From assembly GCA_903894155.1 (NCBI GenBank), contig CAITPF010000181.1:1-39104 (forward strand): 39,104 bases of DNA. Direction: 5' to 3'. The notes under the pieces are model-generated. The model saw only the letters and a program-made list of their open reading frames with translations, was not told where the DNA came from and did not search any database. The DNA is from an uncultured beta proteobacterium. GTDB taxonomy: Bacteria; Pseudomonadota; Gammaproteobacteria; Burkholderiales; Burkholderiaceae_B. Positions 1 to 28,402 of this stretch are shown here, piece by piece (the stretch's first letter is position 1; each line of letters starts with the position of its first letter). The position numbers and the translations under genes were made by a program.

Positions 1-340
1 CGGACCGGCGCAGTCTGAGCCCGACAGGGGGCATGCGGCACCCGGCCCGCACAGCGCAAGGCGAAATACAGCGCCGCTCGGTGACACTGCCGGTTTCTCT
101 AAAAACACTATTCAGAAAAACTGGCAGAAAACCCGCCACGTCCTGCCGAATCCAGAGGCACCCCATAGGAGGATTATGATAGGATTATCGCGGGGACGGA
201 CTCGACCCGTGCACAGATTAGAAGAACAACGATTCGACGAGACATCCGCATCATTTTCGGACGATTATTCGCCGATGTTGCCGCGATTCCTGTCGTAGTG
301 CGTTCAAAATCAGATGCCCCCTGCAACTCCGGAGGATTTT
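1..340. other. Leader region with no convincing gene
   Basis: I see no recognisable protein in this stretch. A 40-codon frame (176-298, plus strand) follows a strong AGGAGG at 167-172, but the spacing to its ATG is only 3 bases and the product, rich in Arg, Asp and Ser, resembles nothing I know. The segment ATAGGAGGATTAT is followed at once by ATAGGATTAT, a short imperfect direct repeat. The region probably holds the promoter and 5' leader of the plus-strand operon. No clear -35/-10 pair could be picked out. Confidence 0.4.
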
Positions 341-1600
341 ATGGATTTCGGTTTTACTAAAGAACAAGAGAACCTGCGCAAGGACGTTCTCGAATTTATC
401 CGGGTCAACATGACCCCTGAGGTCTACGCCGAGATGGACGAGGCTGAGGAGGCGACCGAAAGCTCCTCCCAGGAACGCCACCCGGGCAAGCGAGGCCCCC
501 TGCTGCAGGCCGTCTTCGACAAGATCGGCGAGCGCGGCTGGCTGGGCTACAGCTACCCCAAAGAGTACGGCGGCCAGAACGGCGATCGCGTCGGCCAGAA
601 CATCATCGAGGAAGAGTTCCTGCGCGCCGGCATCCAGATCAGCCTGGCCGGCAGCGGGGCGCCCGCGATCATGGCCGTTGGCACCGAAGAGCAGAAGCGC
701 TACTTCCTGCCCAAGCTCATCAAGATGGACTACTCCTTCGCGCTGGGCTTTACCGAACCGCACGCGGGCGCAGACCTCGCCGCCCTGAAGTGCCGCGCAA
801 AGCGTGATGGCGACCACTTCGTCATCAACGGCCAGAAGATGTACACCACGTCGGCACACTACGCGACGCACATCTACCTGATGGCGCGCACCGATCCCGA
901 TGTGGGTCGCCACGACGGGATTTCGATCTTCCTGATCCCGATGGATACCGCGGGCATTACCGTGCGCCCGCTCTGGACGATCCAGAACAATCCGCGTGCG
1001 CCGCGTGGCACGACCTATGGCGAAGCGCGCAGCAACGAAACGTTCTTCGAGAACGTGCGGGTGCACGAATCGACACTGCTCGGGCGCGAAAACCAGGGCT
1101 GGCGCGTGGGTTCCATGGGCCTGAACCTCGACCGCGTGGGCGCGGCGCGCTATCTGCGCTCGGTGCGTCGCGACGAGGATATCGTCAACTTCGTGAAATC
1201 CAACAAGTTCGGCGATTACACGCCGGCCGACGATCCGGCCATCCGCGACAAGATCGCCGAGATGTGGATCGAAGGCCAGGTCTGCCGCCTCATGACCCTG
1301 CGCAGCATGTCCATCGTTGAGCATGGCGGCAACTTCACCTACGAAGGCTCGGCCGAAAAAGTCTGGTCGCCCGAGCACGGCGTGCGCTGCACCGAGGCCA
1401 TCACGCAAATGCTCGGACCGTACGGGACGCTGCTCAACGGCTCGCCGCGCGCCGTCGAAAAAGGCGTCTTCGCCCACAACACGATGGGCGCATTCCAGTC
1501 CGGCATCAACCACGGCAGCGTGCAGATCATGCGCGATCAGGTGGCCAAGCGCGGTCTCGAATTGCCCTCCCAGCGCAGGAGCCAGAAGGCCAAGGCATAA
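341..1600 (+). CDS. Acyl-CoA dehydrogenase family protein (subunit 1 of a pair)
   Basis: A flavoenzyme of the acyl-CoA dehydrogenase superfamily, expected to introduce an alpha,beta double bond into an acyl-CoA. The 419-residue protein has the N-terminal helical domain from MDFGFTKEQENLR, the GWLGYSYPKEYGG segment, the beta domain with the family motif ALGFTEPHAGADLA and the C-terminal helical domain. The ATG at 341 is chosen over the one at 314 because GGAGG lies just before it and the protein then begins like its family. Near the C-terminus, where MCAD-type enzymes carry the catalytic Glu in a YEG-T motif, this protein reads NHGSVQIM. I could not place the base and it may lie elsewhere. It is the first gene of a plus-strand operon and is followed by a second, different dehydrogenase, a layout typical of heteromeric dehydrogenases. 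The substrate is unknown. Confidence 0.93.
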   Translation: MDFGFTKEQENLRKDVLEFIRVNMTPEVYAEMDEAEEATESSSQERHPGKRGPLLQAVFDKIGERGWLGYSYPKEYGGQNGDRVGQNIIEEEFLRAGIQISLAGSGAPAIMAVGTEEQKRYFLPKLIKMDYSFALGFTEPHAGADLAALKCRAKRDGDHFVINGQKMYTTSAHYATHIYLMARTDPDVGRHDGISIFLIPMDTAGITVRPLWTIQNNPRAPRGTTYGEARSNETFFENVRVHESTLLGRENQGWRVGSMGLNLDRVGAARYLRSVRRDEDIVNFVKSNKFGDYTPADDPAIRDKIAEMWIEGQVCRLMTLRSMSIVEHGGNFTYEGSAEKVWSPEHGVRCTEAITQMLGPYGTLLNGSPRAVEKGVFAHNTMGAFQSGINHGSVQIMRDQVAKRGLELPSQRRSQKAKA

Positions 1601-1693
1601 AAAGGGCCCCGTGCCCCGGGGGGAGCGACGCACTGCGCGTCGCCTGCGATGTCCACAGAACAGTGCTGCTGAAAGCAAAAGATAGGATCGAAC

Positions 1694-2874
1694 ATGGATG
1701 TGCTGCTGAACGACGAAGAGAAACTGGTTGCCTCGAGCGCCCGCGAATTCCTGCAGGGTGAATGCTCGACTGCCCTGGTGCGCGAGATGGAAGAAGACCG
1801 GCTGGGTTACTCGCCCGAACTCTGGGCCAAGAGCGCCGAGATGGGCTGGCCGGGCATGTGCCTGCCCGAGCAATACGGCGGCCAGGAACTGCCCCTGACG
1901 TACCTGGGCCTGGTCATGCAGGAATGCGGGCGCGCGATGGCGCCGATCCCGCTGCACAGCACTGTCGTGACCTCGATCACGCTGGCGCGCTCAGGATCCC
2001 CCGAGCAACGCCAGGCGATCCTGCCCGGCGTGTCGGAAGGAAAGACGATCCTCACCTGGGCGTTCTCCGAAGTCGACGCGCGCTACCTGCCGGCAACCGT
2101 GAAGATGACGGCCAAGGCTGACGGCGACGACTTCGTGCTCAACGGCAACAAACTGTTCGTCGACAATTTCCTCGCGGCCAATCTTTGCCTGGTCGCCGCA
2201 CGCACCGCGCCCGCCTCGGAAAAAAGCGCCGGGCTTTCGTTGTTCCTCGTCGACACCAAGGCCGCGGGCATCACGGATATATCCCGCTGCGCACCCTGGC
2301 CAAGGATCGCCAGTCGGAAATCGTGTTCAAGGACGTGCGCGTCTCCAAGGCCAATCTGGTCGGGGCGCTCAACGAAGGCTGGCCCATCATGGAGCAACTG
2401 CTCGATCTTGGAACCGTCCTCGTTTGCACCCAGATGCTGGGTGCCACGCGGATCGACGCCGAAATGGCCATCGAGCACGCCAAGTTCCGCGAAGCCTTTG
2501 GCCAGCCGATCGGCGCGTTCCAGTCGATCCAGCACACCTGCGCCGACATGATCATCTTCATCGACGGCGGAGAGCTGCTTTCGTACGAAGCGCTCTGGAA
2601 GATGGACAACGGCATGCCGGCCCAGGTCGAGGTATCCCAGGCCAAGGCCTTCTGCAACGAGAAGTGCGAAGCAGTCGTTCGTAACTCCCAGTCGGTCCAC
2701 GGTGGTATCGGCTTCATGATGGAGTTCGACCTGCACCTGTGGCTGCGCCGGGTGACCGCCTGGTCCATGCGCCTGGGCACCGCCTACGAACACCGCGCCC
2801 GGGTCGCCCATGCGCTGCTGGATTTGCCGGGTCGCGTGGTCCTGGGCCAGCCCGTTCCCCCGGTCGCGAACTAG
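1694..2874 (+). pseudogene. Acyl-CoA dehydrogenase family protein (subunit 2), frameshifted
   Basis: The second acyl-CoA dehydrogenase of the pair, about 393 residues if restored. The first part (1694 to about 2276) has the N-terminal and beta domains, with LPEQYGG, and runs to SLFLVDTKAAGIT. The homologous sequence then continues one frame over with YIPLRTLAKDRQ at about 2278 and keeps the C-terminal domain, including VHGGIGFMMEFDLHLWLRR, to 2874. One missing base (or two extra) near 2276-2280, in the stretch GGATATATCCC, explains the break. Both halves are otherwise well conserved, so this is either a very recent mutation or a sequencing error. I see no slippery heptamer that would suggest programmed frameshifting. 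The start at 1694 has AGGA about 7 bases upstream. Its partner is the gene at 341. Confidence 0.88.
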
Positions 2875-2899
2875 TCCTCATTCAATCGGAGCAGTGAAA

Positions 2900-3103
2900 A
2901 TGAAATGTCTCGTGTGCGGAAAGGAAATCGACACGGCCAGCGCCGACTCCAAGACGGGTGAAACCGCCTTCGGTGCCAGGGAAGTCGATCCGAGCAAGGG
3001 CACCCGCCAGTTCCACGATGGCGAGTGGTATTTCTTCGACACGCTGTCTTGCCGTACCAAGTTCATGGTCGCACCGCAGCGTTACCTGACCGGCAAGGCC
3101 TGA
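2900..3103 (+). CDS. Small YHS/TRASH-like metal-binding protein
   Basis: A 67-residue protein that begins with MKCLVCGKEID, a CxxC pair, and contains FHDGEWYFFDTLSCRTKF, which places a further Cys after an aromatic stretch. This arrangement resembles YHS and TRASH domains, small zinc or other metal-binding folds often attached to or beside redox enzymes. The ATG at 2900 has GGAG upstream and opens 26 bases after the dehydrogenase stop. Its place between the dehydrogenases and the hydratases suggests a helper role in the same complex or a metal or redox function. This is inference. No enzymatic activity is expected from its size. Confidence 0.72.
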   Translation: MKCLVCGKEIDTASADSKTGETAFGAREVDPSKGTRQFHDGEWYFFDTLSCRTKFMVAPQRYLTGKA

Positions 3104-3113
3104 GCGGCCGCGG

Positions 3114-3130
3114 GGCCGCCTCGGGCGGCC
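3114..3130. other. GC-rich hairpin inside the operon
   Basis: GGCCGCC (3114-3120), loop TCG, GGCGGCC (3124-3130): a perfect 7-bp stem 10 bases after the stop of the YHS-like gene. Only two T follow on the plus strand, so it is not a classical terminator. In the 172-base gap it may lower readthrough or protect the upstream mRNA end. Confidence 0.45.
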
Positions 3131-3275
3131 TTGCACGGGCCATGGCGCCACGCGGCGCCTGTGCGGCTCGTTTCCCGTATCAGGCTTTCTGTTTGTATGG
3201 CGCTGCGTGCATTCCTTCGGGATGCCAGCAGCGCGGCTCATAGCCACTGGTATTCATCCATCAAGGAGATAGCGT

Positions 3276-3806
3276 ATGTCTGCCCTGACCGAATCGCTCA
3301 AAAAATACATCGGATTGAAATCCGAGACGGATGTGGCCTGCGACACCGTCGAGCGCGGCGCCGTGCGCCGTTACGCCCAGGCGATCCAGAACGAAGACCC
3401 GATTTTCAACACGCCGTGCGAGACCAATGCGCGCTATGGCGGCCCTGTCGCCCCGCCGTTGTTTCCGACGCACATGTTCAGGCGGCCCTTCGGCGTGTCC
3501 GACCCGATCCAGGACAACGTCAACAACCCGGACTTCGACGGAATCGTCGCCGCGACCAGTTCGCAGGGATTGCCGGCGATCGAGCCGCTCAAGGGGTACG
3601 CGCTGCTCAATGGCGGATCTGAAATCGAATTTTTCCGCTATGCGCGCCACGGCGAGAAGGTCACGCTGCAATCGCGCTATGCCGACATCATCGAAAAAGA
3701 GACGAGCAAGGGACCGATGATCCTGGTCATTACCGAGTCGGAATACCGCACGCCGGAAGGCGAGTTGCTGATCCGCACCCGTCGCACCCAGATTCGGAGG
3801 AAATAG
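3276..3806 (+). CDS. MaoC/FAS1-like hydratase, N-terminal hot-dog subunit
   Basis: A 176-residue hot-dog fold protein of the FAS1-like dehydratase (MaoC N-terminal) type. Visible family features are YAQAIQNEDPIFN, the GGPVAPPLFPTHMF loop and the central helix region. In the (R)-hydratase signature D-x-N-P-x-H the catalytic His position reads Phe here, so this subunit is probably not catalytic by itself. AAGGAG precedes the ATG. The next gene, only 2 bases away, encodes a second hot-dog protein that keeps the His. Together they likely form a heteromeric enoyl-CoA hydratase, as known for MaoC pairs such as ChsH1/ChsH2 in steroid side-chain breakdown. The role here would be to hydrate the enoyl-CoA made by the dehydrogenases; the substrate is unknown. 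Confidence 0.85.
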   Translation: MSALTESLKKYIGLKSETDVACDTVERGAVRRYAQAIQNEDPIFNTPCETNARYGGPVAPPLFPTHMFRRPFGVSDPIQDNVNNPDFDGIVAATSSQGLPAIEPLKGYALLNGGSEIEFFRYARHGEKVTLQSRYADIIEKETSKGPMILVITESEYRTPEGELLIRTRRTQIRRK

Positions 3807-3808
3807 TC

Positions 3809-4291
3809 ATGGCACTCGGCAAACCCCTGTTCTTCGAAGACGTGGCGGTCGGGCAGTCGATCCCGACGCTCGAGAAAGGCGCCTTCACGACGGCTCACCT
3901 GATGCGGTGGTCCGCGGCCATGGAAAACTGGCACAAGATCCACTATGACGAGCGCTTTGCCATCGAACATGACAAGCTGCCCGGGCTGCTGGTCAACGGC
4001 TCGCTCAAGCAGCAGTACGTCATGCAACTGCTCGCCGATTGGGCCGGACCCGGCGGCTGGGTCTGGAAGGCGAGCTTTCAGTTTCGCGCGATGAACCAGG
4101 TCGGCGAAGCACTGCGCGTCTGGGGCAAGGTCACCGGCAAGCGCGAAGGGCCCGACTTCGGCGTCGTCGACATCGAGCTCGGCATCCTCAACCAGGACGA
4201 CAAAGAGTCGACCCCTGGCACCGGCACGATCGCGCTGCCCTACCGCAACGGCAAGCCGCTGCCCTATCCCTTCGTGCCGCCGGCGCTCTAG
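3809..4291 (+). CDS. MaoC-like hydratase, catalytic hot-dog subunit
   Basis: A 160-residue MaoC-like protein. The segment AAMENWHKIHYDERFA matches the hydratase helix with the His of the (N)xHxIHYD pattern seen in mesaconyl-CoA hydratase-like enzymes, and GLLVNGSLKQQYVMQLL forms the following helix. GGAGG lies just before the ATG and the gene starts 2 bases after the upstream hot-dog gene, so the two are translated together. I infer that it supplies the catalytic residues of a two-subunit enoyl-CoA hydratase. It is followed without a gap by a CoA-transferase gene that begins with GTG. Confidence 0.87.
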   Translation: MALGKPLFFEDVAVGQSIPTLEKGAFTTAHLMRWSAAMENWHKIHYDERFAIEHDKLPGLLVNGSLKQQYVMQLLADWAGPGGWVWKASFQFRAMNQVGEALRVWGKVTGKREGPDFGVVDIELGILNQDDKESTPGTGTIALPYRNGKPLPYPFVPPAL

Positions 4292-4293
4292 GC

Positions 4294-5535
4294 GTGGATA
4301 CGAGCCACCAGTCTGGCGCGCTCGACGGAATACGGGTTCTCGATCTCAGCCACGGGATCGCGGGCCCGTTTGCCGCGCGGTTGCTGGGCGACTACGGCGC
4401 GCAGGTCATCAAGGTCGAAAAGCCGGTGTCCGGCGATCTTGCCAGAGCCCTGCCGCCGCTCGCGCCCGACGCGCAGGCGCCCGAACAAAGCCTGCTTTTT
4501 CAGTACCTCAACTGGAACAAGCGCAGCATCGCGCTTGACCTGCGCTTAGCCGAATCGCATCCGGCGATCCGCGAGCTGGTGCGCGCGAGCGATATCGTCA
4601 TTGAAAGTTTTCGTCCCGGCACCCTGGCGCGCTGGGGCCTCTCGGTAGATCAGATGCTGGCGTGGAATCCGCGCATCGTCGTCACCTCCATCACCAATTT
4701 CGGGCAGGACGGTCCCTACGCACAGTTCCGCGCCAGCGACCTCGTGCTGCAGGCCATGGGCGGCATCATGCAGATCAGCGGCCAGGCCGATCGCGAACCG
4801 CTCAAGCACGGGTTGTCGCAGTCGTATTATTGCGCCGGGCTCAATGCCGCCTATGCCTCTGTCATGGCGGCCTGCGCGGCCCAGACCGACGGGATCGGCG
4901 AGCATATTGACCTCTCCATCCAGGAGTGCCTGGCCTCCGAGCTCGTGCTCAACCAGTCGTACTACGCTTTTCTCGGTGCCGTGCAAGGTCGTCGCGCCGT
5001 GGTGCAGGATCCCTTTGCCGGCGAGCCGATTCCCGCGCGCAAGGGATTTATCGCCTTTCAAACAGGCGGCGGCGCACCATTCGACACATTTGCCGAGTTG
5101 TTCGACCGGCCTGAGTTTCGCGATCCGCGGTTCTCGAGCCCGCCCCAGCGCGAGAAGCGGGTGCCGGAAGTGCGCGCGCTGCTCGAAGAATGCGTCGCCG
5201 ATCGCGATGCCAAGGAAGTATTTCTTGCCGGGCAGTCCAGGCGTCTGCTCCTTGGCATGGTGCAGAGCGCGCAAGACCTGCTCGACTGCGAGCACCTGCG
5301 CGACCGCAAGGCCTTTGCGGCAGTGCCGCACCCGGCCACCGCCACCGAAATTACTTTCCCGTTCGAGCTCGCCAAGATGTCGGCCACGCCCGCTACGCTG
5401 CGGCGCAGGTCACCCATGCTTGATGAGCACCGCACGGAAATCCTGGCGGGGCTCACGGGCCTGGACGCCGCAGAGCGTGCTGCGCTGGCCGTTGCACCCC
5501 ACCTGGCCGCGGGGAGCGTGACGCATGGAAAATAA
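4294..5535 (+). CDS. Class III CoA-transferase (CaiB/BaiF), likely non-catalytic partner
   Basis: A 413-residue family III CoA-transferase, which moves CoA between carboxylic acids. It has the N-terminal signature IRVLDLSHGIAGPFAARLLG, then GAQVIKVEKP and NWNKRSIALDL. I chose the GTG at 4294 because it lies 2 bases after the preceding stop and the protein then begins at the family start. Class III enzymes carry a catalytic Asp four residues before a Gly in a (D)xxxG segment (Asp169 in formyl-CoA transferase). This protein reads SQSYYCAGLNAAY there, with no Asp and an apparent short deletion compared with the next gene. It overlaps that paralogue by 11 bases. A heteromer such as BbsEF, the benzylsuccinate CoA-transferase, is the closest known model. 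Confidence 0.88.
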   Translation: MDTSHQSGALDGIRVLDLSHGIAGPFAARLLGDYGAQVIKVEKPVSGDLARALPPLAPDAQAPEQSLLFQYLNWNKRSIALDLRLAESHPAIRELVRASDIVIESFRPGTLARWGLSVDQMLAWNPRIVVTSITNFGQDGPYAQFRASDLVLQAMGGIMQISGQADREPLKHGLSQSYYCAGLNAAYASVMAACAAQTDGIGEHIDLSIQECLASELVLNQSYYAFLGAVQGRRAVVQDPFAGEPIPARKGFIAFQTGGGAPFDTFAELFDRPEFRDPRFSSPPQREKRVPEVRALLEECVADRDAKEVFLAGQSRRLLLGMVQSAQDLLDCEHLRDRKAFAAVPHPATATEITFPFELAKMSATPATLRRRSPMLDEHRTEILAGLTGLDAAERAALAVAPHLAAGSVTHGK

Positions 5536-6922
5536 GGCAACCCTGCCATTGACCGGCATGCGCGTGCTGGATCTTTCTTACGTGTTTGCCGTTCCCTACA
5601 TGGCGGGACTTCTCAGCGATCTTGGCGCCGATGTCATCAAGATCGAGGCGCCGCACAAACTCGACCAGACGCGCGGGCGTGCGTTCGGCCCTTACCTGGA
5701 CAACGATCCAGCCGGGGATCCCTGGAACCGCTCCGGCATCTTCTACGTGGTGAATCGCGGCAAGCGCTCGCTGGTGCTGGACATGGGCAAGCCCGAGGGC
5801 AAGGAAGTCTTCCTCGACCTCGTGCGCGAGAGCGATATTGTCCTGGAGAACTACACGCCGCGCGTCATGCGCAAGTGGGGCCTGCATTACGACGAGCTTC
5901 GCAAGATCAAGCCTTCGCTGATCATGCTGTCCAACACCGGATACGGATCCACGGGGCCGTGGTGCAATTTCCCGAGCCAGGGCACGACGCTCGAGGCGAC
6001 GATGGGAATCACCTGCTACACCGGCTACCCCGGCGACAAGCCCTGGAAGGTCGGCCAATCCTATCCGGACTTCCTCGCGTGCTGGTCGGGCCTGACCGCG
6101 CTTTGGTCGGCGATCCACCATATGCGCAAGACTGGCGTTGGCCAGTGGATCGACGTTGGCATGTACCAGCTCGGCGTGGCGCTGATTCCCGAGCCCATCA
6201 TCCAGAAGCAGGTCGACGGCACCGACATGCCGCGCATCGGCAACGAGCATCGCGAGCATGTGCCAAGCAACGTGTACCGCGCGCAGGGCGACGATCAGTG
6301 GATTGCCCTCACGGTCGAGACCGATGCGCAATGGGCAACGCTCGCTCACCTGATGGGCCAGCCCGCGCTTGCCGCCGACGCGCGTTTTGCAACCGCCGCG
6401 GGCAGGCGCGCGCACCGCGACGAAGTCAACGCCGTGGTCGCCGCATGGACACTTGCGCAAGACAAGACGCGCCTGACCGAAATCCTGCAGGGCAGCGGCA
6501 TTGCCGCAGGCCCGGTGCTCAACAGCCGGGAGTTGCTGCTTGATCCGCACCTGACGCACCGGGGTTTCTACGAGCGGGTCGATCACCCGGAACCCATCGG
6601 CATGCGCCGCATCATCGGGCGCCCCTATCGGTTGCGCTTCAGGAACGTGCACATCCGCAAACCGGGGCCACGCTTTGGCGACGGCAACGACAGCGTGCTG
6701 CGCGAGATCGCCGGCCTGGATGACGAGCGCATCGCGGCGCTCAAGGCAGCCGGGATCGTCAGCGACCTGCCGACCAACCCGGGGATCTCCGGCACGATGG
6801 ATACCGAAGGCATGCTCAAGCTGCGCACGCTGGTCGCCGTTGACCCCGATTATCGGGACATCATGGCACGGGCAGAAGCGCCGGCGCGCGCCGACCAGAA
6901 AGGGGAATCCGATGCGAAATAG
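5525..6922 (+). CDS. Class III CoA-transferase (CaiB/BaiF), catalytic
   Basis: A 465-residue family III CoA-transferase starting MENKATLPLTGMRVLDLSYV, with GADVIKIEAP and the TGVGQWIDVGMYQ segment. The candidate nucleophile Asp is present in QSYPDFLACWSG. The protein is about 50 residues longer than its neighbour, mainly by a C-terminal extension. It overlaps the upstream transferase by 11 bases and the downstream TctC gene by 11 bases, so translation of all three is coupled. I infer that the two transferases form one enzyme that activates the acid delivered by the TctABC transporter, using a CoA donor such as succinyl-CoA or acetyl-CoA. The donor is not shown by the sequence. Confidence 0.9.
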   Translation: MENKATLPLTGMRVLDLSYVFAVPYMAGLLSDLGADVIKIEAPHKLDQTRGRAFGPYLDNDPAGDPWNRSGIFYVVNRGKRSLVLDMGKPEGKEVFLDLVRESDIVLENYTPRVMRKWGLHYDELRKIKPSLIMLSNTGYGSTGPWCNFPSQGTTLEATMGITCYTGYPGDKPWKVGQSYPDFLACWSGLTALWSAIHHMRKTGVGQWIDVGMYQLGVALIPEPIIQKQVDGTDMPRIGNEHREHVPSNVYRAQGDDQWIALTVETDAQWATLAHLMGQPALAADARFATAAGRRAHRDEVNAVVAAWTLAQDKTRLTEILQGSGIAAGPVLNSRELLLDPHLTHRGFYERVDHPEPIGMRRIIGRPYRLRFRNVHIRKPGPRFGDGNDSVLREIAGLDDERIAALKAAGIVSDLPTNPGISGTMDTEGMLKLRTLVAVDPDYRDIMARAEAPARADQKGESDAK

Positions 6923-7901
6923 ACTCCGGGAGCGCGGTGCATGGCGCTTGCTCGCCGCCCTGTTTTTCGCATGCCTCGGGGGTGCCGCGTTCGGTCAGGC
7001 CGACAACTACCCCAGCCGTTCGATCACCTTCATCGTCCCCTACGGTCCGGCCGGATCGACGGATCCGGTGTCACGGCAGTTCGTCTCGCAACTCGAAAAG
7101 GTGCTTGGCGTCGACATCAATATTGAAAACAAGCCAGGCGGCTCCGGCACGCTGGGCTTCGGGATCGTCATGCGGGCAAAGCCCGATGGCTACACGATCG
7201 GCCTGGCCACCAACAGCATGCTGGCCTATCAACCCCTGGTCAACCCGGCGCTAACGTTCAAGACGCCTGACGATTACCAGCCCATCGTCAAACTGGGTGA
7301 AACGCCGATCGTGCTGGTGGTGCGCGCGGATTCCCCCTGGAAGACGTTCGACGAATTCATGGCGCACGTGCGCGCCAATCCGGGGAAAGTGCGCGCGGCA
7401 GTCTCGGGCAAGCGCACGGTGCCCGATCTGCTCGCCCAGGAATTCAATTTGAACGCGAAGGTCAACCTGCGCACGGTTCCCTTCACAGGCGGCAGCGGCG
7501 AAGCCCTCGTGGCGCTGCTGGGCAATCGGGTCGAGGCGACGCTTTTCACCGGCGCCTTTGGCCTGCCGGGGCACGTGGAAGCCGGAAAAATCCGCGTGCT
7601 CGCCGTGTTCAAGCAGGGGCCATATGGTCCGCTGCCAGAGGCTTACACCACGATCGATGCGGGATACAAGACAACCATCACGGCGTCCTTTTACGTGATC
7701 GGGCCCAAAGGCCTGCCCAAGCCCGTGCTCGACAAACTGACGGCCGCCTCGATGCAAGTGGTTAAAAGCCCGGAATACGCTGCGTTCGCCAAGGTCGGCT
7801 ACGCGCTCAACCCCCTGGGCCCCGAAGGCATCCGCGAAGAAATCATCCGCGACACGGCCACCTTCAAAGAGCTGATCAAATTGCTCGACACGAGCAAGTG
7901 A
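6912..7901 (+). CDS. tctC: TTT transporter solute receptor (Bug/TctC family)
   Basis: A 329-residue periplasmic receptor of the tripartite tricarboxylate transporter (TTT) family. It begins with a basic stretch and a hydrophobic signal peptide (LLAALFFACLGGAAFGQA), then the family opening YPSRSITFIVPYGPAGSTD and ENKPGGSGTLG. The ATG at 6912 lies inside the end of the CoA-transferase, with AGGGGAA before it. Members bind carboxylates such as citrate, dicarboxylates or nicotinate; the ligand here is unknown. TctB and TctA follow on the same strand, so this is the one receptor in the window with its own permease. It is closest to the receptor at 14630: both share PWKTF(D/E)EF and VPFTGG-GE-LVALLG. 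Confidence 0.92.
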   Translation: MRNRLRERGAWRLLAALFFACLGGAAFGQADNYPSRSITFIVPYGPAGSTDPVSRQFVSQLEKVLGVDINIENKPGGSGTLGFGIVMRAKPDGYTIGLATNSMLAYQPLVNPALTFKTPDDYQPIVKLGETPIVLVVRADSPWKTFDEFMAHVRANPGKVRAAVSGKRTVPDLLAQEFNLNAKVNLRTVPFTGGSGEALVALLGNRVEATLFTGAFGLPGHVEAGKIRVLAVFKQGPYGPLPEAYTTIDAGYKTTITASFYVIGPKGLPKPVLDKLTAASMQVVKSPEYAAFAKVGYALNPLGPEGIREEIIRDTATFKELIKLLDTSK

Positions 7902-7925: not shown

Positions 7926-8417
7926 GTGGACACCAGCCGGATGACCCTACGCGGAATCACCAAGCGCCAGGGCTATCTCTGGACAGGCCTTTTCGGCATC
8001 GTGCTTTCCGCGGGATATTTCGCCGCTGCCGCCGAATTGCCACTTGGAACGATGGACGAGCCAGGCGCGAGGCTGTTTCCGATCCTCGTCGACGCGCTCC
8101 TCCTGATCGCCAGCCTTGCGTGCGTGCGCGAAGCGCTGATGAGCCCCGACATGAAAGGAAAGCTCGATTTCCCTGTCGGTGCCGATGCAAAGCGGCTGGG
8201 CGGGCTCGTCTTGCTGCTGCTGGCCTACTTTTGCGCGATGCCGTGGGCAGGCTTCCTGCTCTCGAGCCTGGCGTTCGCCACGCTGCTGGTCCGGCTGTTG
8301 TCCGCTTCGGGGTGGTTCAGGTGCATCGTCTACGGCGTGCTGATCACCGCGCTCACGTGGCTCTTCTTTATCTATTTCCTCAAGGTGCCCATGCCCTCGG
8401 GCGTGATCTACTTTTAG
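7926..8417 (+). CDS. tctB: TTT transporter small membrane subunit TctB
   Basis: A 163-residue membrane protein with four predicted hydrophobic segments: YLWTGLFGIVLSAGYFAAA, ILVDALLLIASLACV, LVLLLLAYFCAMPWAGFLL, and the C-terminal IVYGVLITALTWLFFIYF. The segment DEPGARLFPILV matches the TctB signature. It lies between TctC and TctA, as in known TTT operons. GTG at 7926 gives the longest form; ATG at 7941 (MTLRGITK) is an alternative, and neither has a strong ribosome site. It works with TctA in the inner membrane. Confidence 0.88.
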   Translation: MDTSRMTLRGITKRQGYLWTGLFGIVLSAGYFAAAAELPLGTMDEPGARLFPILVDALLLIASLACVREALMSPDMKGKLDFPVGADAKRLGGLVLLLLAYFCAMPWAGFLLSSLAFATLLVRLLSASGWFRCIVYGVLITALTWLFFIYFLKVPMPSGVIYF

Positions 8418-8433: not shown

Positions 8434-9960
8434 ATGGATGCGCTGAACGGGATTCTCTACGGCCTGGGCGTTGCCTTTACCTTCAACAACCTGCTTGCCG
8501 CGCTCGTCGGCGCGCTGGCCGGGACGCTGATCGGCGTTCTTCCCGGCCTGGGACCGACCGCGGGCATCGCGATGATCCTGCCGCTGAGCTACTCGCTGGA
8601 TCCCACCAGCGGGCTCATCATGATGGCCGGCATCTTTTACGGCGCCATGTACGGCGGATCGACGACCGCGATCCTGATGAACATGCCGGGCGAATCGGCT
8701 TCGGTCATCACGTGCATCGACGGCTACAAAATGACCAAGAAGGGCCGCGCCGGAGCCGTGCTCACCATCGTCGCGGCCGGATCGTTTTTCGGCGGCGTGC
8801 TGTCGGTCATCGGCGTCATGCTGTTCGCCCCGGCGCTGGCGGAGTTCGGCCTGATGTTCGGGCCGGCCGAGTTCTTCGCGCTGACGGCTGGCGGTCTGTT
8901 GCTGTTTTCGCGCATTTCGGGCGGCACCTTCGCGGCCGGCATTCTTCCGATGGCGCTCGGCCTGATGCTCAGCACGATCGGTCAGGAAGCGGTGACCGGT
9001 CAGGATCGGTTTACGCTGGGTCTGCCCGATCTTGCCCTGGGCGTCGAGCTTGTCGCGCTGGTCGTCGGGCTCTACGGCGTTGCCGAGATCATGAACGTGG
9101 TCGAGACCCTGCACACGCAGCCCAAGCCCGTCGCTGTCCGGCTGCGCGATCTTTTCCCTTCACGGACCGAATGGCGCCGCTCAATGGCGCCGTTCGGGCG
9201 CGGCACGATCCTGGGCTTTCTCTTCGGACTGCTTCCCGGGCCCTCGGCCACCATGGCGAGCTTCGCCTCTTACCGGCTCGAGAAAGGCGTGTCGAAATAC
9301 AAGGACGAAATCGGCGAGGGCGCGATCGAAGGCGTCGCAGGCCCCGAGACCGCCAACAATGCGGCGGCAACCTCCTCCATGGTGCCGCTGCTCGCGCTCG
9401 GCATCCCGTTCAGTTCGGTGACCGCACTGATGCTGTCGGCCATGATGGTCCATGGGGTGCAGCCCGGCCCCACGATGATGGCAAGCCACCCGGAGGTATT
9501 CTGGGGCGTGATCGCCTCGATGGTCGTCGGCAACGTGATGCTGGTGATCCTCAACGTGCCGCTGATCGGCTTGTGGGTGAGCCTGCTGCGCGTGCCCAAC
9601 CATCTTTTCCTGCCCGTGATCCTGATCGTCGCGACCATCGGCTGCTACAGCGTGCGCAACAGCATGCTCGACGTGTTCCTGCTGCTGGTGGTCGCGCTGA
9701 TCGGATGGCTGCTGCGCAAGCTCGACTTCCAGCTCGCGCCGATGGTGGTGGGGCTGGTGCTGGGGCCGCTGATTGAAAAGCACCTGCGCGAGGGACTCTT
9801 CCTGAGTCTGGGCGAACCGTCGTACTTTTATTCCAGCCCGCTGGCGGTGGCGATCTGGGTGGTCGTCCTGGCCGTACTGTGCTTCGATCCGGTGCGCAAA
9901 CTCGCTGCACGGATCTTCGGCTTCAAGGCCGAGCGGATCTTCCCCGAGGGCGAGGAGTAA
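8434..9960 (+). CDS. tctA: TTT transporter large permease TctA
   Basis: A 508-residue polytopic membrane protein, the transport subunit of a TTT system. It shows the repeated family signature: GALAGTLIGVLPGLGPTAG near the start and FGLLPGPSATMASF in the second half, with YGAMYGGSTTAIL after the first. AGGAGC lies before the ATG at 8434 and the gene starts 16 bases after tctB. It should drive sodium- or proton-coupled import of the acid bound by the TctC receptor at 6912. It is the last gene of the plus-strand operon. A convergent gene begins within 80 bases. Confidence 0.93.
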   Translation: MDALNGILYGLGVAFTFNNLLAALVGALAGTLIGVLPGLGPTAGIAMILPLSYSLDPTSGLIMMAGIFYGAMYGGSTTAILMNMPGESASVITCIDGYKMTKKGRAGAVLTIVAAGSFFGGVLSVIGVMLFAPALAEFGLMFGPAEFFALTAGGLLLFSRISGGTFAAGILPMALGLMLSTIGQEAVTGQDRFTLGLPDLALGVELVALVVGLYGVAEIMNVVETLHTQPKPVAVRLRDLFPSRTEWRRSMAPFGRGTILGFLFGLLPGPSATMASFASYRLEKGVSKYKDEIGEGAIEGVAGPETANNAAATSSMVPLLALGIPFSSVTALMLSAMMVHGVQPGPTMMASHPEVFWGVIASMVVGNVMLVILNVPLIGLWVSLLRVPNHLFLPVILIVATIGCYSVRNSMLDVFLLLVVALIGWLLRKLDFQLAPMVVGLVLGPLIEKHLREGLFLSLGEPSYFYSSPLAVAIWVVVLAVLCFDPVRKLAARIFGFKAERIFPEGEE

Positions 9961-10039: not shown

Positions 10040-11026
10040 TCAGTCGTTCGTCGCGCCGGTCAGTTTCACGATCGAGGCCCACTTGGCGACTTCGTTCGCG
10101 ATGAACACGGTCGACGCCTGCGCGTCGAGGTTGGCCACCACCATGCCCAGCTCCTCCACCTTCGCAACGATCTCGGGGCTGCGCATCGCCACGCCCACCT
10201 GCTTGTCAAGCCACGCCATCGCGTCCGGTGGAATACCTGCCGGCGCGACCAGACCGAGCCAGCCGTCGATCGCGTAGCCAGGGAGTCCCGCCTCGTCGAT
10301 CGTCGGAATATCCGGGAACACCGGCGAGCGCTTGGCGCCGGTGACCGCGAGCGCGCGCACCTTGCCATCCCGGATCTGGGGTGCCGCCGTGCTGATGGCG
10401 TCAAACATCACCTCGACGCTGCCGCCGATCACGTCGACCATCGCAGGGCCCGCGCCACGGTAGGGCACGTGCTTCATGTTGATGCCGGCCATCTTGTTGA
10501 ACAGCTCTCCCGAGAAATGCGGGGTAGTGCCATTGCCGGACGAGGCGAAGTTCAGCGGCATCGTGCCCGACTTTCCCAGCGCGATGAGCTCCTTGACGGA
10601 GGTGGCGGGCACCTTGGGATTGACCACCAGGATATTGTTCGACGTGCTCAGGATGCGAATGGCCGCGATGTCCTTCGTCACGTCATAGCCCGGCTTGATC
10701 GGCATGCTCATGTTGATCGCATGCGAGGTGATGATCATGCCGATGGTGTAGCCATCGGGTTTGGCGCGCGCAATCGCCTCCATGCCGACGTTACCGCCCG
10801 CACCCTGCCGGGTCTCGACGACGACCGGCTGGCCGCCGAGTTCGCTGAGCTTTTTGGCCACGATCCGTCCGAGAATATCGGTCAGACCGCCCGTCGGAAA
10901 CGGAATGATCATGCGGATGGGGCGATCCGGATACTCGGCCCCGGCACGCGTGGGCAAGGCCAGGAGCGATATCACCGCCGTCGAGGCCAACACCGACGCG
11001 AGGAGCCTTCTACGAAATGTTTTCAA
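10040..11026 (-). CDS. Bug/TctC-family solute receptor without its own permease
   Basis: A 328-residue periplasmic receptor with a signal peptide (RRRLLASVLASTAVISLLAL) and the family segments YPDRPIRMIIPFPTGG and ETRQGAGGNVG. I chose the TTG start at 11026 because AGGAGAGG lies just upstream and the length then matches the family; a longer frame to 11068 has no ribosome site. No tctA/tctB genes are next to it, so it is an orphan receptor, common in Bordetella relatives. It must borrow a permease or act as a sensor. It follows a class III CoA-transferase on the same strand, which suggests that its ligand is the acid activated by that enzyme. Confidence 0.9.
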   Translation of the reverse strand: MKTFRRRLLASVLASTAVISLLALPTRAGAEYPDRPIRMIIPFPTGGLTDILGRIVAKKLSELGGQPVVVETRQGAGGNVGMEAIARAKPDGYTIGMIITSHAINMSMPIKPGYDVTKDIAAIRILSTSNNILVVNPKVPATSVKELIALGKSGTMPLNFASSGNGTTPHFSGELFNKMAGINMKHVPYRGAGPAMVDVIGGSVEVMFDAISTAAPQIRDGKVRALAVTGAKRSPVFPDIPTIDEAGLPGYAIDGWLGLVAPAGIPPDAMAWLDKQVGVAMRSPEIVAKVEELGMVVANLDAQASTVFIANEVAKWASIVKLTGATND

Positions 11027-11091
11027 TCTGCCTCTCCTGGCATGTGCAATATCACGCCTGTGCGCCACGCGACGCGATCGTAACGCCTTGG

Positions 11092-14629: not shown

Positions 14630-15610
14630 CTACTTCTTCTCCAGGAACTTCAGCAACTCGGCGAACTTTTCCTGGTAGAGGGTCAGCTCGGCCCGCATCT
14701 CCTCGGGCCCCTTGCTATCGACAATGTAACCGTGGGCCAGGCCGAACGCGCGGAACTCGTCGCTGCGCACGGTCTCAAGCGATGCGGCGACCAGTTTTTC
14801 GCGAACCGGCTCGGGCATGCCCTTGGGCGCAATGATGTTGTAGACCGCCTGCAACGATGCGTCGTAGCCCGCATCAACCACTGAGGTCGCGTCGGGAAAC
14901 AGCGGATATTTGCCCTTCATGAACACGGCCAGCGGGCGAATGCGGCCTGCCTGGACATGGCCCAGGGCGCCGGGGCCAAAACCCACCGTGGCTTCGACGC
15001 GGCCACCCAGCAATGCAACGAGCGATTCCCCGCCGCCGCCCGTAAACGGCACCGTCACCAGGTGAATGTTCGCCGCCTTGTTCAACTGCTGCACCGCCAG
15101 GTCGGAGCTCTCGCGACGACCCGATACAGACACACGCATTTTCCCGGGCCGCCGGCGCGCATCCTCGATGAACTCCTCGAAAGTTTTCCAGGGAGCGTCT
15201 GCCTGCACACTGAGCACGGCCGGCAACTGCACCAGTTTCACGATGGATTCGTAGTCGCCCGTATCCTTGTAGGGCAGCTTGCTATTGACGAGAGGCTGGT
15301 AGGCCAGCGCGCTGTAGGTGCCCAGGCCGATCGTGTAGCCGTCGGGCTTTGCGCGCACGACTGCGCTCGCACCCAGCGTCGCCGCGCCGCCTGGCTTGTT
15401 CTCGATGTTGACCGACGCCGGCAGCCGTTTGGCGATGCCGGCGGCATACGCCCGCGCGATCGGGTCCGTCGATCCGCCTGGCAGGTACGGCACGATCAGC
15501 GTGATGTCGCGCGAAGGATAAGGCTGCGCCACCGCGGTCGCGGCGGCGGCTGCAAGGGCCATCGCACCGAGGACGCACCTCAGCCCAAACACAAACGGTA
15601 GTCTCATCAA
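14630..15610 (-). CDS. Bug/TctC-family solute receptor
   Basis: A 326-residue periplasmic receptor with a signal peptide (VLGAMALAAAAATAVAQP) and the family segments YPSRDITLIVPYLPGGSTD and ENKPGGAATLG. ATG codons at 15610 and 15607 are both possible starts; AGGAGG lies at 15613-15618. No permease genes are adjacent. It shares PWKTFEEF, VPFTGGGGESLVALLG and RVEAT with the receptor at 6912, more than with the other receptors here, which suggests a within-genome duplicate that could use the TctAB at 7926-9960. It lies between the MDR oxidoreductase and the alpha/beta hydrolase. Confidence 0.91.
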   Translation of the reverse strand: MMRLPFVFGLRCVLGAMALAAAAATAVAQPYPSRDITLIVPYLPGGSTDPIARAYAAGIAKRLPASVNIENKPGGAATLGASAVVRAKPDGYTIGLGTYSALAYQPLVNSKLPYKDTGDYESIVKLVQLPAVLSVQADAPWKTFEEFIEDARRRPGKMRVSVSGRRESSDLAVQQLNKAANIHLVTVPFTGGGGESLVALLGGRVEATVGFGPGALGHVQAGRIRPLAVFMKGKYPLFPDATSVVDAGYDASLQAVYNIIAPKGMPEPVREKLVAASLETVRSDEFRAFGLAHGYIVDSKGPEEMRAELTLYQEKFAELLKFLEKK

Positions 15611-17534: not shown

Positions 17535-18518
17535 TCACTTGCGCTCGACCCCGGCCTGCTCGATCAGCTTGCCCCAGGTCGCATACGTCGTCTGAATCAA
17601 CTTGCTGAAATCCGCAGAGGTGGGGCTCGTCACCACCTCGGTGCCCATCGCCTCGAGCTTGGCGCTGATTTCCGGATCGCGCACCGCCTTGTTGATTTCG
17701 TCATGCAGTCGCTTGACGATGGCATCCGGTGTGCCCTTGGGCGCCACAAACCCGAGCCACGCGCCCATGTTGTAGTCGGGGACGCCCTGCTCCTCGAGCG
17801 TCGGAATCGAGGGGTCGAGCCTGGCACGCTCGTGCGTGCTGACGGCCAGCGCCCAGAGCCGTCCGCTCTTGACGTGCGGAAGCACGGTCACCAGGGTGTC
17901 CAGGGTCATGTCGACGTTGCCGCCGATGACGTCAGCCTGGGACTGACTGCTTCCGGTGTACGGGACGTGGACCATCTGCAGACCCGTTTTCTGAAGCATC
18001 ATCGCCATCAGCAGATGGCTGGTCGTGCCCATGCCAATCGACGCAAACGTCAGCTTGTCGGGATTGGCGCGCGCAAAGGCGACCATCTTCGGAAAGGTGT
18101 CGAGCCCCTTGGTCTTGTTGATCACCAGCACGTACGGCAGCCAGGACGTCTGGCCGATCGGCGCGAAATCCGTCAGCGAGTCGTAACCGAGCTCTTTGTA
18201 GATATGCGGATTGATCCCGAGCGGCCCGGAGGCTGTCAGTGCGAGGGTGTAGCCATCGGGCCTGGCGCGCGCGACTTCGGTCACCGCCAGGCTGCCGCCC
18301 ACCCCGGGCTTGTTCTTGATGATGATCGGCTGCCCGAGCTCCTTGCTGACCTTTTCCATGATCACGCGCGCCACCGAGTCCGTAGAGGTGCCCGGCGGGA
18401 ACCCGACGTAGACGGTAATGGGCTTGTCGGGATAGTCGGCGAGCGCAGCCCCGGAAAGTCCGAGCAGGAGCGCGCCCGCGAGCGCGACGGATCGTTTGAT
18501 GGAATTGAGCAGTGTCAT
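17535..18518 (-). CDS. Bug/TctC-family solute receptor
   Basis: A 327-residue periplasmic receptor with a signal peptide (VALAGALLLGLSGAALA), then YPDKPITVYVGFPPGTSTD and KNKPGVGGSLA. The ATG at 18518 is preferred because GAGG lies upstream and the protein then begins with its signal peptide. It has no adjacent tctAB genes. It follows the TRAP receptor by 71 bases, across a large hairpin, and precedes an SDR gene. Its sequence is clearly different from the other receptors in the window, so a different ligand is likely. Confidence 0.91.
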   Translation of the reverse strand: MTLLNSIKRSVALAGALLLGLSGAALADYPDKPITVYVGFPPGTSTDSVARVIMEKVSKELGQPIIIKNKPGVGGSLAVTEVARARPDGYTLALTASGPLGINPHIYKELGYDSLTDFAPIGQTSWLPYVLVINKTKGLDTFPKMVAFARANPDKLTFASIGMGTTSHLLMAMMLQKTGLQMVHVPYTGSSQSQADVIGGNVDMTLDTLVTVLPHVKSGRLWALAVSTHERARLDPSIPTLEEQGVPDYNMGAWLGFVAPKGTPDAIVKRLHDEINKAVRDPEISAKLEAMGTEVVTSPTSADFSKLIQTTYATWGKLIEQAGVERK

Positions 18519-18538
18519 CGCTACCTCGTTACGTTCAA

Positions 18539-18583
18539 CGCGCACCGGCCCACGCCGCAAGGCGCGGCGCGGTCTGGTGCGCG
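18539..18583. other. Compound hairpin between two receptor genes
   Basis: An outer stem CGCGCACC (18539-18546) with GGTGCGCG (18576-18583) encloses an inner stem CGCCGC (18553-18558) with GCGGCG (18564-18569). It fills most of the 71-base gap between the TRAP receptor stop and the next start. No T-run follows on the minus strand. Stabilising the upstream receptor mRNA or partial termination are both possible. Confidence 0.45.
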
Positions 18584-18589: not shown

Positions 18590-19690
18590 TTATCGGCGCA
18601 GTTGCCTGTTGATGGCCGTGTCGTATGCAAATTCCGACACCTGGTTCCAGGGCGAGGCTTCCTTCTGGTAGGCTCGCTGGCTTTCGTAGATCTTCTTGAA
18701 TGTCGGGTTGGTCGCAGAGATTTCGGCATAGAGCTTGATCGATGCGTCATACGCGGCGTCGATGACTGCGGCCGGAAACGCGTGCAACTTGACGCCCGAC
18801 CCCACGAGCCGGCGCAACGCGGGTGGATTGAGCACGTCGTAGTGGGCGATGCTGTCGATATTGGCGGCAGCGGCCGCCGTTCGCAGGATCGACTGGTATG
18901 ACTTGGGCAGCGATTCCCAGGCTGCATTGCCGATGAAAAAGTGCTGCAGCGACGTGCCATCCCAGAAGCCCGGGTAGTAGTAGTGCGGCGCGACTTTGAA
19001 AAGACCCAGCTTCTCGTCATCGAACGGGCCGTTGAATTCGGCCGCATCGATCGTCCCACGCTCAAGCGCGGGGTAGATATCGCCCGCGCCGATCTGCTGC
19101 GGAATCACACCGAGCCGCGCGAGCACCTGCCCGCCCAGGCCCGAGATCCGGAACTTCAGGCCCTTGAGGTCATCGAGCCCCTTGATTTCCTTGCGAAACC
19201 AGCCTCCCATCTGGGTTGTCGTATTGCCACCCGGCAGCGCCACCACCTTGTACTGCTGGAAGAACGTCTCGAGCAGTTCCTTGCCCTCGCCGTGATAGGC
19301 CCAGGCGGCCTGCTGGCGCGTGTTAAGCAGGAACGGCGCGTGCGTGGCCAGCGCAAAGGCCGGATCCTTGCCCGCGTAATAGTATGCGGCGGTATGGCAC
19401 ATCTCGACCGAAGCCCCGGCCACCGCGTCAAACGCCTGCAACGCGGGCACGACCTCGCCGGCGGCGTGAACCTGGATCTGGAACTTGTTGTCCGTCGCTT
19501 CGGCGACAGCCCGGGCCAGGAAAGGCGCGCAGCCAAAGAGCACTTCGAGGTTCTTCGGAAAGCTCGAGACACAGCGCCATTTGACCGACGGCATCTCCTG
19601 TGCAACGGCTGGCGACGCCACGGCCGCCAATCCGGCCGCCGAGGTCGAGGCGGTCAGGGCCCGACCCAAAAACTTGCGTCTTGTTGTCAT
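18590..19690 (-). CDS. TRAP transporter solute receptor, DctP/TakP-like
   Basis: A 366-residue periplasmic receptor of a TRAP transporter. It starts MTTRRKFLGRALTAS, which looks like a Tat-type signal with a twin Arg, and is cleaved near SPAVAQE. The segments NTTTQMGGWFRKEI, GLGGQVLARLG, GAGDIYPALERGTIDAAEF and HYYYPGFWDG match the TakP branch, which binds alpha-keto acids. The ATG at 19690 has GGGAGGA upstream and is preferred over 19726. Its permease genes lie upstream on the same strand at 21234-23269, separated by two small genes. The TakP resemblance hints at a 2-keto acid ligand, but this is inference. Confidence 0.91.
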   Translation of the reverse strand: MTTRRKFLGRALTASTSAAGLAAVASPAVAQEMPSVKWRCVSSFPKNLEVLFGCAPFLARAVAEATDNKFQIQVHAAGEVVPALQAFDAVAGASVEMCHTAAYYYAGKDPAFALATHAPFLLNTRQQAAWAYHGEGKELLETFFQQYKVVALPGGNTTTQMGGWFRKEIKGLDDLKGLKFRISGLGGQVLARLGVIPQQIGAGDIYPALERGTIDAAEFNGPFDDEKLGLFKVAPHYYYPGFWDGTSLQHFFIGNAAWESLPKSYQSILRTAAAAANIDSIAHYDVLNPPALRRLVGSGVKLHAFPAAVIDAAYDASIKLYAEISATNPTFKKIYESQRAYQKEASPWNQVSEFAYDTAINRQLRR

Positions 19691-19771
19691 GTCATCCTCC
19701 CGTTGTGCATGGATCCGATCGGTCACATGCTGGTTTTTTTGAAATGATACTCGCTTGACGCCATTGCGGCG

Positions 19772-20776: not shown

Positions 20777-21237
20777 TCAGACGCTCCGGTACGAGGCAAT
20801 GACCCGTCCATCAGGGCCGAAAACGCGCGTATGACTTTCGGATCGGCGCAATAAAAGACGCGCACGCCTGGACCGGCCCGCACGATCAACCGGGGCGCGA
20901 GGAGCCAGCTCAGCCAGGGCACGTAGATGAATTTGGCCTGAGTGATGTCCGCGAGCGCGACCCGCCGCTTCCAGAGCCACGTCTGCTCGATGGCGACCCC
21001 GTCGATGGACGTTCGGCTCTTGAGCATCCAGATATAGGCGACCAGCGTAATGACAAACGCGCCGCCCACCAGCAGCCAGGATCCGGTCGACAGGGATCGG
21101 GGCCCGGCTTGTATCAGCGCGGCCGCCCCCCAGTAGACCAGGGCAAGCACCATGAAAGTGGCCATCAGCTTGACCAGGGGCGGGAAGGCTGGCCCCTCGG
21201 CACGCGTTGCCAGCAGATCGGGGGCCTGCGCGCTCAT
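20773..21237 (-). CDS. Small membrane protein, possible bacterial PH-like domain
   Basis: A 154-residue protein with two transmembrane segments (LMATFMVLALVYWGAAALI and SWLLVGGAFVITLVAYIWML) followed by a soluble part, SRTSIDGVAIEQTWLWKRR onward, that resembles the membrane-associated PH-like domains of bacterial proteins. The start overlaps the TRAP large permease stop as ATGA, and its stop overlaps the PanE-like start in the same way. It is not a standard TRAP component. I do not recognise a function; a regulatory or assembly role with the permease is possible. Confidence 0.75.
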   Translation of the reverse strand: MSAQAPDLLATRAEGPAFPPLVKLMATFMVLALVYWGAAALIQAGPRSLSTGSWLLVGGAFVITLVAYIWMLKSRTSIDGVAIEQTWLWKRRVALADITQAKFIYVPWLSWLLAPRLIVRAGPGVRVFYCADPKVIRAFSALMDGSLPRTGASE

Positions 21238-23269: not shown

Positions 23270-23294
23270 GAGGACTCCGGAGCCCAAATTCCCG

Positions 23295-25452: not shown

Positions 25453-25495
25453 GTTCGCTCCTTCCATCGGGTACCGGATCCATCGCTTCGGACCC

Positions 25496-28387: not shown

Positions 28388-28402
28388 TTCCGATTAGCCG
28401 CT

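Follow-up and report, generated by a model that had tools for sequence, protein, structure and literature searches.

The window analysed here is a stretch of 39,104 nucleotides, an entire contig (CAITPF010000181.1, here C181) of an uncultured betaproteobacterium assigned to Burkholderiaceae_B. An operon in it (pairs at 341-6922, + strand) probably encodes a degradation pathway for a substituted succinate or a 3-substituted glutarate. For each of three successive steps the enzyme would be an obligate heteromer, in which a catalytic paralogue is joined by an inert one. This proposal is built on the pairing of paralogues, the complementary loss of active-site residues, the conservation of these losses and the linkage of the genes in relatives, all read from sequence. 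A sequence-only reading of the same DNA had placed adjacent pairs of acyl-CoA dehydrogenases (ACAD1 and ACAD2), MaoC-type hydratases (M1 and M2) and class III coenzyme A (CoA)-transferases (CT1 and CT2) in this region, and open reading frames and family matches agree with it. Its coordinates and gene types were correct. It overlooked the break of the ACAD2 frame at about 2276-2284 in this assembly, a gene for a YHS-like protein of 67 residues (2900-3103, + strand) between ACAD2 and M1, and the probable end of the pathway, which is encoded on another contig of the genome. When the active sites of the three pairs were aligned, one member of each was found to lack catalytic residues; the dehydrogenase pair, which had been left open earlier, follows the same rule.

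Complementary residues in the dehydrogenases

Related loci were collected by a single scan for relatives of ACAD1, which gave 270 confirmed stretches, and the best 80 (79 loci, L033-L111) were kept. Because the loci come from this one scan, the locus counts given below depend on similarity to ACAD1 and on the length of the contigs. From these loci we aligned 57 ACAD1/ACAD2 pairs (same strand, at most 700 bases apart, each protein longer than 330 residues). Other acyl-CoA dehydrogenases of the source genome served as controls: 39 matches were found, including the two in the window, 30 were retrieved, and 29 had a usable frame. Residues were counted in aligned columns, because loose expressions for the motifs that bind flavin adenine dinucleotide (FAD) gave chance matches (ADP-side motifs in 14 and 17 of the 57 ACAD1 proteins, and a loose E376 motif in 56 of 57).

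ACAD1 (341-1600, + strand) and ACAD2 (1694-2874, + strand) divide the FAD site between them. The flavin-ring side (Gly of TEPxAG plus Ser/Thr of the next FAD motif) is present in 57/57 ACAD1 proteins and 0/57 ACAD2 proteins. Conversely, the ADP-side Arg, Phe and Gln occur together in every ACAD2 (57/57) and in no ACAD1 (0/57; Arg alone in three), which marks ACAD2 as a beta-type subunit with the ADP side only. Both sides are present in 24 of the 29 controls. The isovaleryl-type base column is Asp in all 57 ACAD1 proteins and Ala or Gly in all 57 ACAD2 proteins, with Glu in 10 of 29 controls. At the second common base position, ACAD1 has His throughout (57/57), and ACAD2 has Leu (41), Met (14), Phe (1) or a gap (1); the controls have Glu in 11 cases and Asp in 7. 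With the losses complementary, neither protein is expected to have a full FAD site by itself, and the two together can form exactly one composite site.

The same division between two adjacent paralogues is reported for ChsE4-ChsE5, ChsE1-ChsE2 and Tcur3481-Tcur3483. For the two ChsE enzymes, the available portion of one paper assigns the flavin-ring side and the base to one subunit and the ADP side to the other (PMC11153573). The best solved matches of ACAD1 are Tcur3483 (197 bits) and 4x28 (171 bits), and the next reaches 119 bits. The ChsE enzymes, however, carry a catalytic Glu in the alpha subunit where ACAD1 has Asp. ACAD1/ACAD2 also differ from them in usually having the YHS-like gene 3' of ACAD2 and in a gene context that is not steroid-like. 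The pair would work in the manner of a ChsE enzyme, but we do not class it as one.

Hydratase and transferase subunits

M1 (3276-3806, + strand; PF13452) is HadA/ChsH2-like and also resembles the N-domain of itaconyl-CoA hydratase. M2 (3809-4291, + strand), the predicted catalytic subunit, has no Pfam match above the E 0.001 level. The claim that only the second hydratase keeps the motif His held: His45 of M2 is His in 23/23 sequences, and position 44 of M1 is Tyr in 16 or Phe in 7 of 23, with the register taken from a hidden Markov model alignment. The other dyad position of M1 is Asp in 17/23 and Asn in the window. In M2 the motif is Asn40-x4-His45 in 23/23, with Asn in place of the canonical Asp five residues ahead of the His. 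Asn226 and His231 are named as putative catalytic residues of mesaconyl-CoA hydratase in the accessible text of PMC10164722, and the stretch NGHRIHYD of itaconyl-CoA hydratase can be compared with the M2 motif. Since M2 and mesaconyl-CoA hydratase share the Asn/His spacing, the missing Asp looks like a trait of branched-dicarboxylate hydratases, not like damage.

A profile of M1 matched HadC, ChsH2-type and HadA chains, and a profile of M2 matched HadB, PhaJ and ChsH1-type chains. The ChsH1 and ChsH2 molecule names are swapped between two PDB entries, and the chains were assigned by length and by what could be seen of PMC11321319. Both profiles matched the two-domain protein 5i7n first, M1 aligning to the N half and M2 to the C half. 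Searching the PDB with the single M1 sequence gave chance matches only. The AlphaFold model of M1 has a mean pLDDT (predicted local distance difference test) of 69.5, with blocks near 40-50 and a weak helix region, so that the helix length, which would test for a bulky pocket, is unreadable in it. Its first fold matches were itaconyl-CoA hydratase and the ChsH1-ChsH2 complex, at TM-scores of about 0.5 or less.

In ChsH1-ChsH2, HadAB and HadBC, as in M1/M2, a catalytic hot-dog subunit is paired with an inert one whose His site is occupied by Tyr or Phe, according to the part of PMC11321319 at hand. The dyad of ChsH1-ChsH2 and HadAB is Asp-x4-His, whereas M2 has Asn-x4-His in every sequence. The mesaconyl- and itaconyl-CoA hydratases share with M1/M2 both Asn-x4-His and an inert N-terminal hot-dog domain, but they are one polypeptide where the window has two genes. 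Of 300 genomes searched in the order, 9 had a match to M1, the source genome among them.

The transferase subunits are CT1 (4294-5535, + strand, with a GTG start) and CT2 (5525-6922, + strand). It had been proposed that only the second keeps the candidate Asp, and the alignment confirmed this: Asp182 of CT2 is Asp in 11/11, and position 178 of CT1 is Asp in 0/12 (Gln in 6, Tyr in 2, and Phe, His, Glu and Leu in one each). Benzylsuccinate CoA-transferase, BbsEF (PDB 9fn0), is likewise a two-subunit class III enzyme. Its chain A has Tyr in place of the Asp by our reading of the alignment, in parallel to CT1, and CT1/CT2 correspond to it in being two adjacent class III paralogues of which one lacks the Asp. 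BbsEF acts on a 2-substituted succinate. CT1 and CT2 favour different chains of it: CT1 scored 216 bits against chain A and 167 against chain B by profile (131 vs. 113 by single sequence), and CT2, whose best solved match is BbsEF, scored 204 bits against chain B and 92 against chain A. CT1-CT2 fusions of 865 and 846 residues, with the CT1 half first, were found on Variovorax and Diaphorobacter plasmids. Where the CT1 half would have the Asp, one fusion has Tyr and the other Ala, and GQSYPD stands in the CT2 half.

The earlier suggestion that the pairs are heteromers comparable to ChsE, ChsH and BbsEF thus gains support from complementary site loss, member-by-member structure matches, fusions and gene order, from which we infer that the complexes assemble.

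A small gene beside the dehydrogenases

The YHS-like gene lies 3' of ACAD2 in 50 of the 60 loci with adjacent ACAD1 and ACAD2. Among the ten loci without it, six have less than 450 bases of contig left, and L080, L089, L090 and L092 have room for the gene. The protein reaches 22.8 bits with the Pfam YHS model (PF04945), under the gathering cut-off of 30.3, and we therefore call it YHS-like only. A PF04945 search of the source genome returned no match because the protein scores under this cut-off. We also searched 399 genomes of the order, which were not selected through ACAD1, with a YHS profile. Nine matches were obtained; the eight strong ones, including that of the source genome, all adjoin ACAD2 and ACAD1. 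The retrieved stretch of the ninth (E 5.9e-8) holds neither. A fold search with the model of the protein gave no match at E up to 0.001; the best value was 0.057, and phenol hydroxylase chains headed the list. In open-access literature, covered by titles and the beginnings of abstracts, no description was found that links a YHS-like protein to an acyl-CoA dehydrogenase. The protein may be a third component of the dehydrogenase, possibly one that binds a metal.

In 8 of 16 Chloroflexi loci (L093, L097, L099-L102, L104 and L105), a luciferase-like monooxygenase gene lies 3' of ACAD1-ACAD2(-YHS).

Recurrence and constraint in related loci

Genes for ACAD1 and ACAD2 are adjacent (less than 400 bases apart) in 60/79 loci, those for M1 and M2 in 34/79, and those for CT1 and CT2 in 29/79. 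The search for this arrangement in other genomes, which had been suggested as a check, found all three pairs together in 23/79 loci, each of them with the YHS-like gene, in several gene orders. By their record titles, these loci belong to Burkholderiales and other Betaproteobacteria, Acetobacteraceae, Rhodospirillaceae, Rokubacteria, Lambdaproteobacteria and one Dehalococcoidia. In a more distant form, all three pair types are also found on a plasmid of Rhodococcus qingshengii, where genes for a thiolase and an OB-fold (oligonucleotide/oligosaccharide-binding) protein lie behind them. The view that all three in one operon is unusual must be narrowed accordingly; what stands is that each heteromer type is otherwise known singly. 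In titles and abstract openings of open-access papers, nothing was recognisable as this operon or as a pathway in which every one of the three steps is split. As far as this literature goes, what is new is the splitting of all three steps in one pathway and the link to the YHS-like gene.

Ten metagenome-assembled genome (MAG) records in the set are labelled Bordetella parapertussis (L035, L038, L046, L062, L065, L067, L081, L082, L086 and L094). Their loci resemble those of environmental Betaproteobacteria, and the species label looks doubtful.

The nearest relative among the retrieved loci is L033, from a Burkholderiaceae MAG, with an ACAD1 97% identical to that of the window. Compared with L033, the ratio of nonsynonymous to synonymous substitution rates (dN/dS) is 0.031-0.096 for all operon members, including M1 (0.037), CT1 (0.071) and the two parts of the broken ACAD2 (0.060 and 0.055). 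In loci L033-L111 there are 62 ACAD2 frames, one per locus; 56 have at least 380 residues, the six shorter ones stop at most 2 bases from a contig end, and 61 of the 62 match both parts of the window's ACAD2. The genes of Zwartia hollandica (L039) are intact. Because both parts are strongly constrained, the frame break is either recent or an assembly error.

Candidate pathway and competing explanations

Two further genes are linked to the three pairs. A gene for a protein like 3-hydroxy-3-methylglutaryl-CoA (HMG-CoA) lyase (PF00682, HMGL-like) is present in 19 of the 23 three-pair loci and directly adjoins M1 in 14; the four without it (L033, L045, L046 and L054) are cut by contig ends. A gene of the MmgE/PrpD type is present in 13 of the 23. 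In the source genome, contig C388 holds counterparts of the L035 genes for the lyase-like protein (85% identity), PrpD (78%), a second TctA (86%), an FAD_binding_2 protein (74%) and an FAA-hydrolase (78%). L033 bridges the end of C388 to the start of the window, which makes the C388 genes very probably upstream neighbours of the operon. The lyase-like protein of the source genome retains GGCP and the Arg, and the Cys-Pro signature is also seen, by alignment, in the longer lyase-like proteins sampled. A 66-base inverted match (89%) was noticed between window positions 19-84 and the start of C388 (L120), ends that are neighbours in L033; it is possibly a small repeat that broke the assembly.

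The closest known gene set is the itaconate/methylsuccinate degradation cluster of Cupriavidus and Pseudomonas, which is described in the available part of PMC12290011 as comprising Ict, Mcd, Ich, Ccl and an MmgE/PrpD isomerase. The same five reaction types are linked here: a CoA-transferase, a dehydrogenase, a MaoC hydratase of the itaconyl/mesaconyl type, a lyase and an MmgE/PrpD protein. The present operon differs in that the transferase and the dehydrogenase are gene pairs, the hydratase is split in two, a YHS-like protein is added and the linked lyase-like gene belongs to the HMG-CoA lyase family. With the Asn-x4-His motif of M2, this gene set fits a methylsuccinate/itaconate-like pathway better than steroid breakdown.

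A chiral 2-substituted succinate (or 3-substituted glutarate) would be taken up by the tripartite tricarboxylate transporter (TTT) encoded behind the pairs. CT1/CT2 would transfer CoA to the acid by way of the CT2 Asp. The alpha,beta double bond would be introduced by ACAD1/ACAD2 as an alpha2beta2 complex, ACAD1 supplying the flavin-ring side and the base and ACAD2 the ADP end of the FAD site. Hydration by M1/M2, with the Asn/His pair of M2, would then yield a tertiary alcohol, M1 making room for the side group. The HMG-CoA-lyase-like enzyme would split this alcohol into acetyl-CoA and a 2-oxo (or 3-oxo) acid, and the MmgE/PrpD protein would correct the stereochemistry of the free acid by isomerising it, most likely between uptake and CoA transfer. 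ChsH2 is discussed as an inert partner that gives room for a side group, in the portion of PMC11321319 available, and the inert partners here could similarly accommodate a side group that exceeds the methylsuccinate methyl in size. No match to a pyruvate formate-lyase-like (glycyl-radical) enzyme was found in the source genome. The acid is therefore probably imported and not made by fumarate addition, which was set aside as a source of the succinate. For the same reason benzylsuccinate formation, the setting of BbsEF in anaerobic toluene degradation, is unlikely here, although the search did not extend to the other Bbs genes. The M2 motif, the resemblance of the transferase to BbsEF, and the lyase-like and MmgE/PrpD genes linked to the pairs narrow the "bulky or unusual acid" of the sequence-only reading to a probable branched dicarboxylate and move it away from steroids.

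Several observations weigh against this pathway. ACAD2 is frame-broken, no second ACAD2 was found in the source genome, and if the break is real the strain lacks this dehydrogenase. Tcur3481 came only eleventh among the solved matches of ACAD2 (searched with the intact L033 copy), behind ordinary acyl-CoA dehydrogenases, and the best solved match of CT1 overall is 4ed9, not BbsEF. The modules can also occur apart: in 15 of 16 Chloroflexi loci the retrieved stretch holds ACAD1 and ACAD2 but neither of the other pairs, four of these 15 (L097, L100, L110 and L111) being contigs shorter than 13 kb, and in L020, L112 and L114 the neighbours of M1-M2 are single acyl-CoA dehydrogenases and transferases that are single or fused. 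The usual Arg-Asp of the lyase is Arg-Glu in the window's lineage, and of the longer lyase-like form found in many other loci, the one tested (L065) stayed under the NCBIfam HMG-CoA lyase cut-off (157.5 vs. 246 bits). The lyase-like protein may act on a different substrate. Its place beside the operon, moreover, is deduced from the relative L033.

Within the branched dicarboxylates, the nearest rival to a 2-substituted succinate is a 3-substituted glutarate that undergoes true HMG-CoA-type cleavage, in a route akin to those for leucine and acyclic terpenes but free of carboxylation. The L035 protein, of the window's lineage, passes the NCBIfam HMG-CoA lyase cut-off (280 vs. 246 bits), as does that of L091, and the residues retained in the lyase-like protein of the source genome suit such a cleavage. 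We nevertheless consider the glutarate unlikely. BbsEF, by its name and as generally known, uses a substituted four-carbon diacid. So does mesaconyl-CoA hydratase, in the accessible text of PMC10164722, and all known MmgE/PrpD substrates share a four-carbon (1,4-) dicarboxylate according to the part of PMC12290011 available, which a 3-substituted glutarate lacks.

A pathway for the side chain of steroids or other polycyclic compounds, like that of actinobacterial ChsE and ChsH, is improbable. In its favour, ChsE-type chains are the nearest to ACAD1, M1 is similar to ChsH2-type chains by both profile and fold, and the linked FAD protein shows a below-cut-off likeness to ketosteroid dehydrogenases. 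M2, however, has the Asn-x4-His of mesaconyl-CoA hydratase and not Asp-x4-His, the linked MmgE/PrpD gene suits dicarboxylates (as far as the published excerpts cited above go), and neither a thiolase-type aldolase nor a DUF35 protein was found among the scanned operon genes. KshA_C had no match in the genome, a weak test in that 1 of 14 control genomes matched, and below the cut-off. The M2 motif and this missing match led us to set the steroid pathway lower than first choice.

It is very improbable that the degenerate members are duplicates in decay and that the intact members work as homomers: the broken frame of ACAD2 would suit decay, but the same site losses recur in all 57 dehydrogenase pairs across several phyla, dN/dS is low for M1, CT1 and both ACAD2 parts, and ACAD1 itself lacks the ADP-side residues, so the losses are not decay and this explanation was rejected.

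Possible sharing of the beta subunit

Solo ACAD1-like genes, which have no neighbouring ACAD2 although the contig has space for it, were found in 14 loci of 12 assemblies. None of the 14 has the ADP-side Arg, Phe or Gln, and all 12 assemblies hold an ACAD2 elsewhere. This suggests that one beta subunit serves several alpha subunits. A comparable case is HadB, which serves both HadA and HadC according to the text seen of PMC11321319. It is conceivable, though we put it forward only tentatively, that a modular system, of a kind absent from the papers found, extends across phyla. In it a shared ACAD2, with the YHS-like and perhaps metal-binding protein, would join several alpha subunits, ACAD1 and the solo ACAD1-like proteins, which have the unusual Asp base. 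Combinatorial dehydrogenases of this kind would act on 2-substituted succinates of refractory dissolved organic matter in Burkholderiales and in SAR202 and other Chloroflexi. SAR202 genomes are known for transferase expansions, and the term YHS is absent from the portion of that paper available (PMC5395668). The ACAD1-ACAD2-YHS cassette of SAR202 is a candidate addition to these expansions.

If the proposed pathway is true, the pairing of a catalytic with an inert subunit would be a design for a whole pathway and not for single enzymes, and would hold outside steroid degradation as well. Such clusters are found repeatedly in Burkholderiales, groundwater Rokubacteria and, for the dehydrogenase part, SAR202/Dehalococcoidia, and the pathway would provide concrete genes and a class of substrates to test for them. 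It would also bear on the breakdown of persistent organic acids in those groups and give a genomic context to the YHS-like mini-protein.

Source genome and other genes of the window

The source genome has 5.1 Mb in 502 contigs and is 99.45% complete and 5.57% contaminated. Behind CT2 lie three genes of the TTT on the + strand: the solute-binding protein TctC (6912-7901) and, presumably, a TctB-like small membrane subunit (7926-8417) and a TctA-like large membrane subunit (8434-9960). We take the latter two names from position and general knowledge of such transporters; both genes are conserved in relatives, where the TctB-like gene adjoins TctA. The window encodes five TctC-type solute-binding proteins, the others at 10040-11068 (by similarity only), 14630-15610, 17535-18560 and 27413-28387, against a single TctA on the contig (tblastn).

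The remaining observations concern the - strand. A tripartite ATP-independent periplasmic (TRAP) transporter, DctP, DctM and DctQ, occupies 18590-23317, with a ketopantoate-reductase-like gene between DctP and DctM. At 24112-25527 a 471-residue protein has one CCG cysteine-rich domain and a sub-cut-off match to a 4Fe-4S dicluster. Adjacent genes for an M20 peptidase, TctC, a beta-keto acid cleavage enzyme (BKACE), a 3-hydroxyacyl-CoA dehydrogenase and a short-chain dehydrogenase/reductase (SDR) at 26161-31131 are a possible further acid-degradation set. At 31122-33638 lies a gene resembling a LivM-LivG-LivF fusion, in which a branched-chain permease domain and two ATP-binding cassette (ABC) ATPase stretches form one chain of 838 residues. 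Close to the contig end, a protein with an AbiEi antitoxin C-terminal domain is encoded at 37780-38703.

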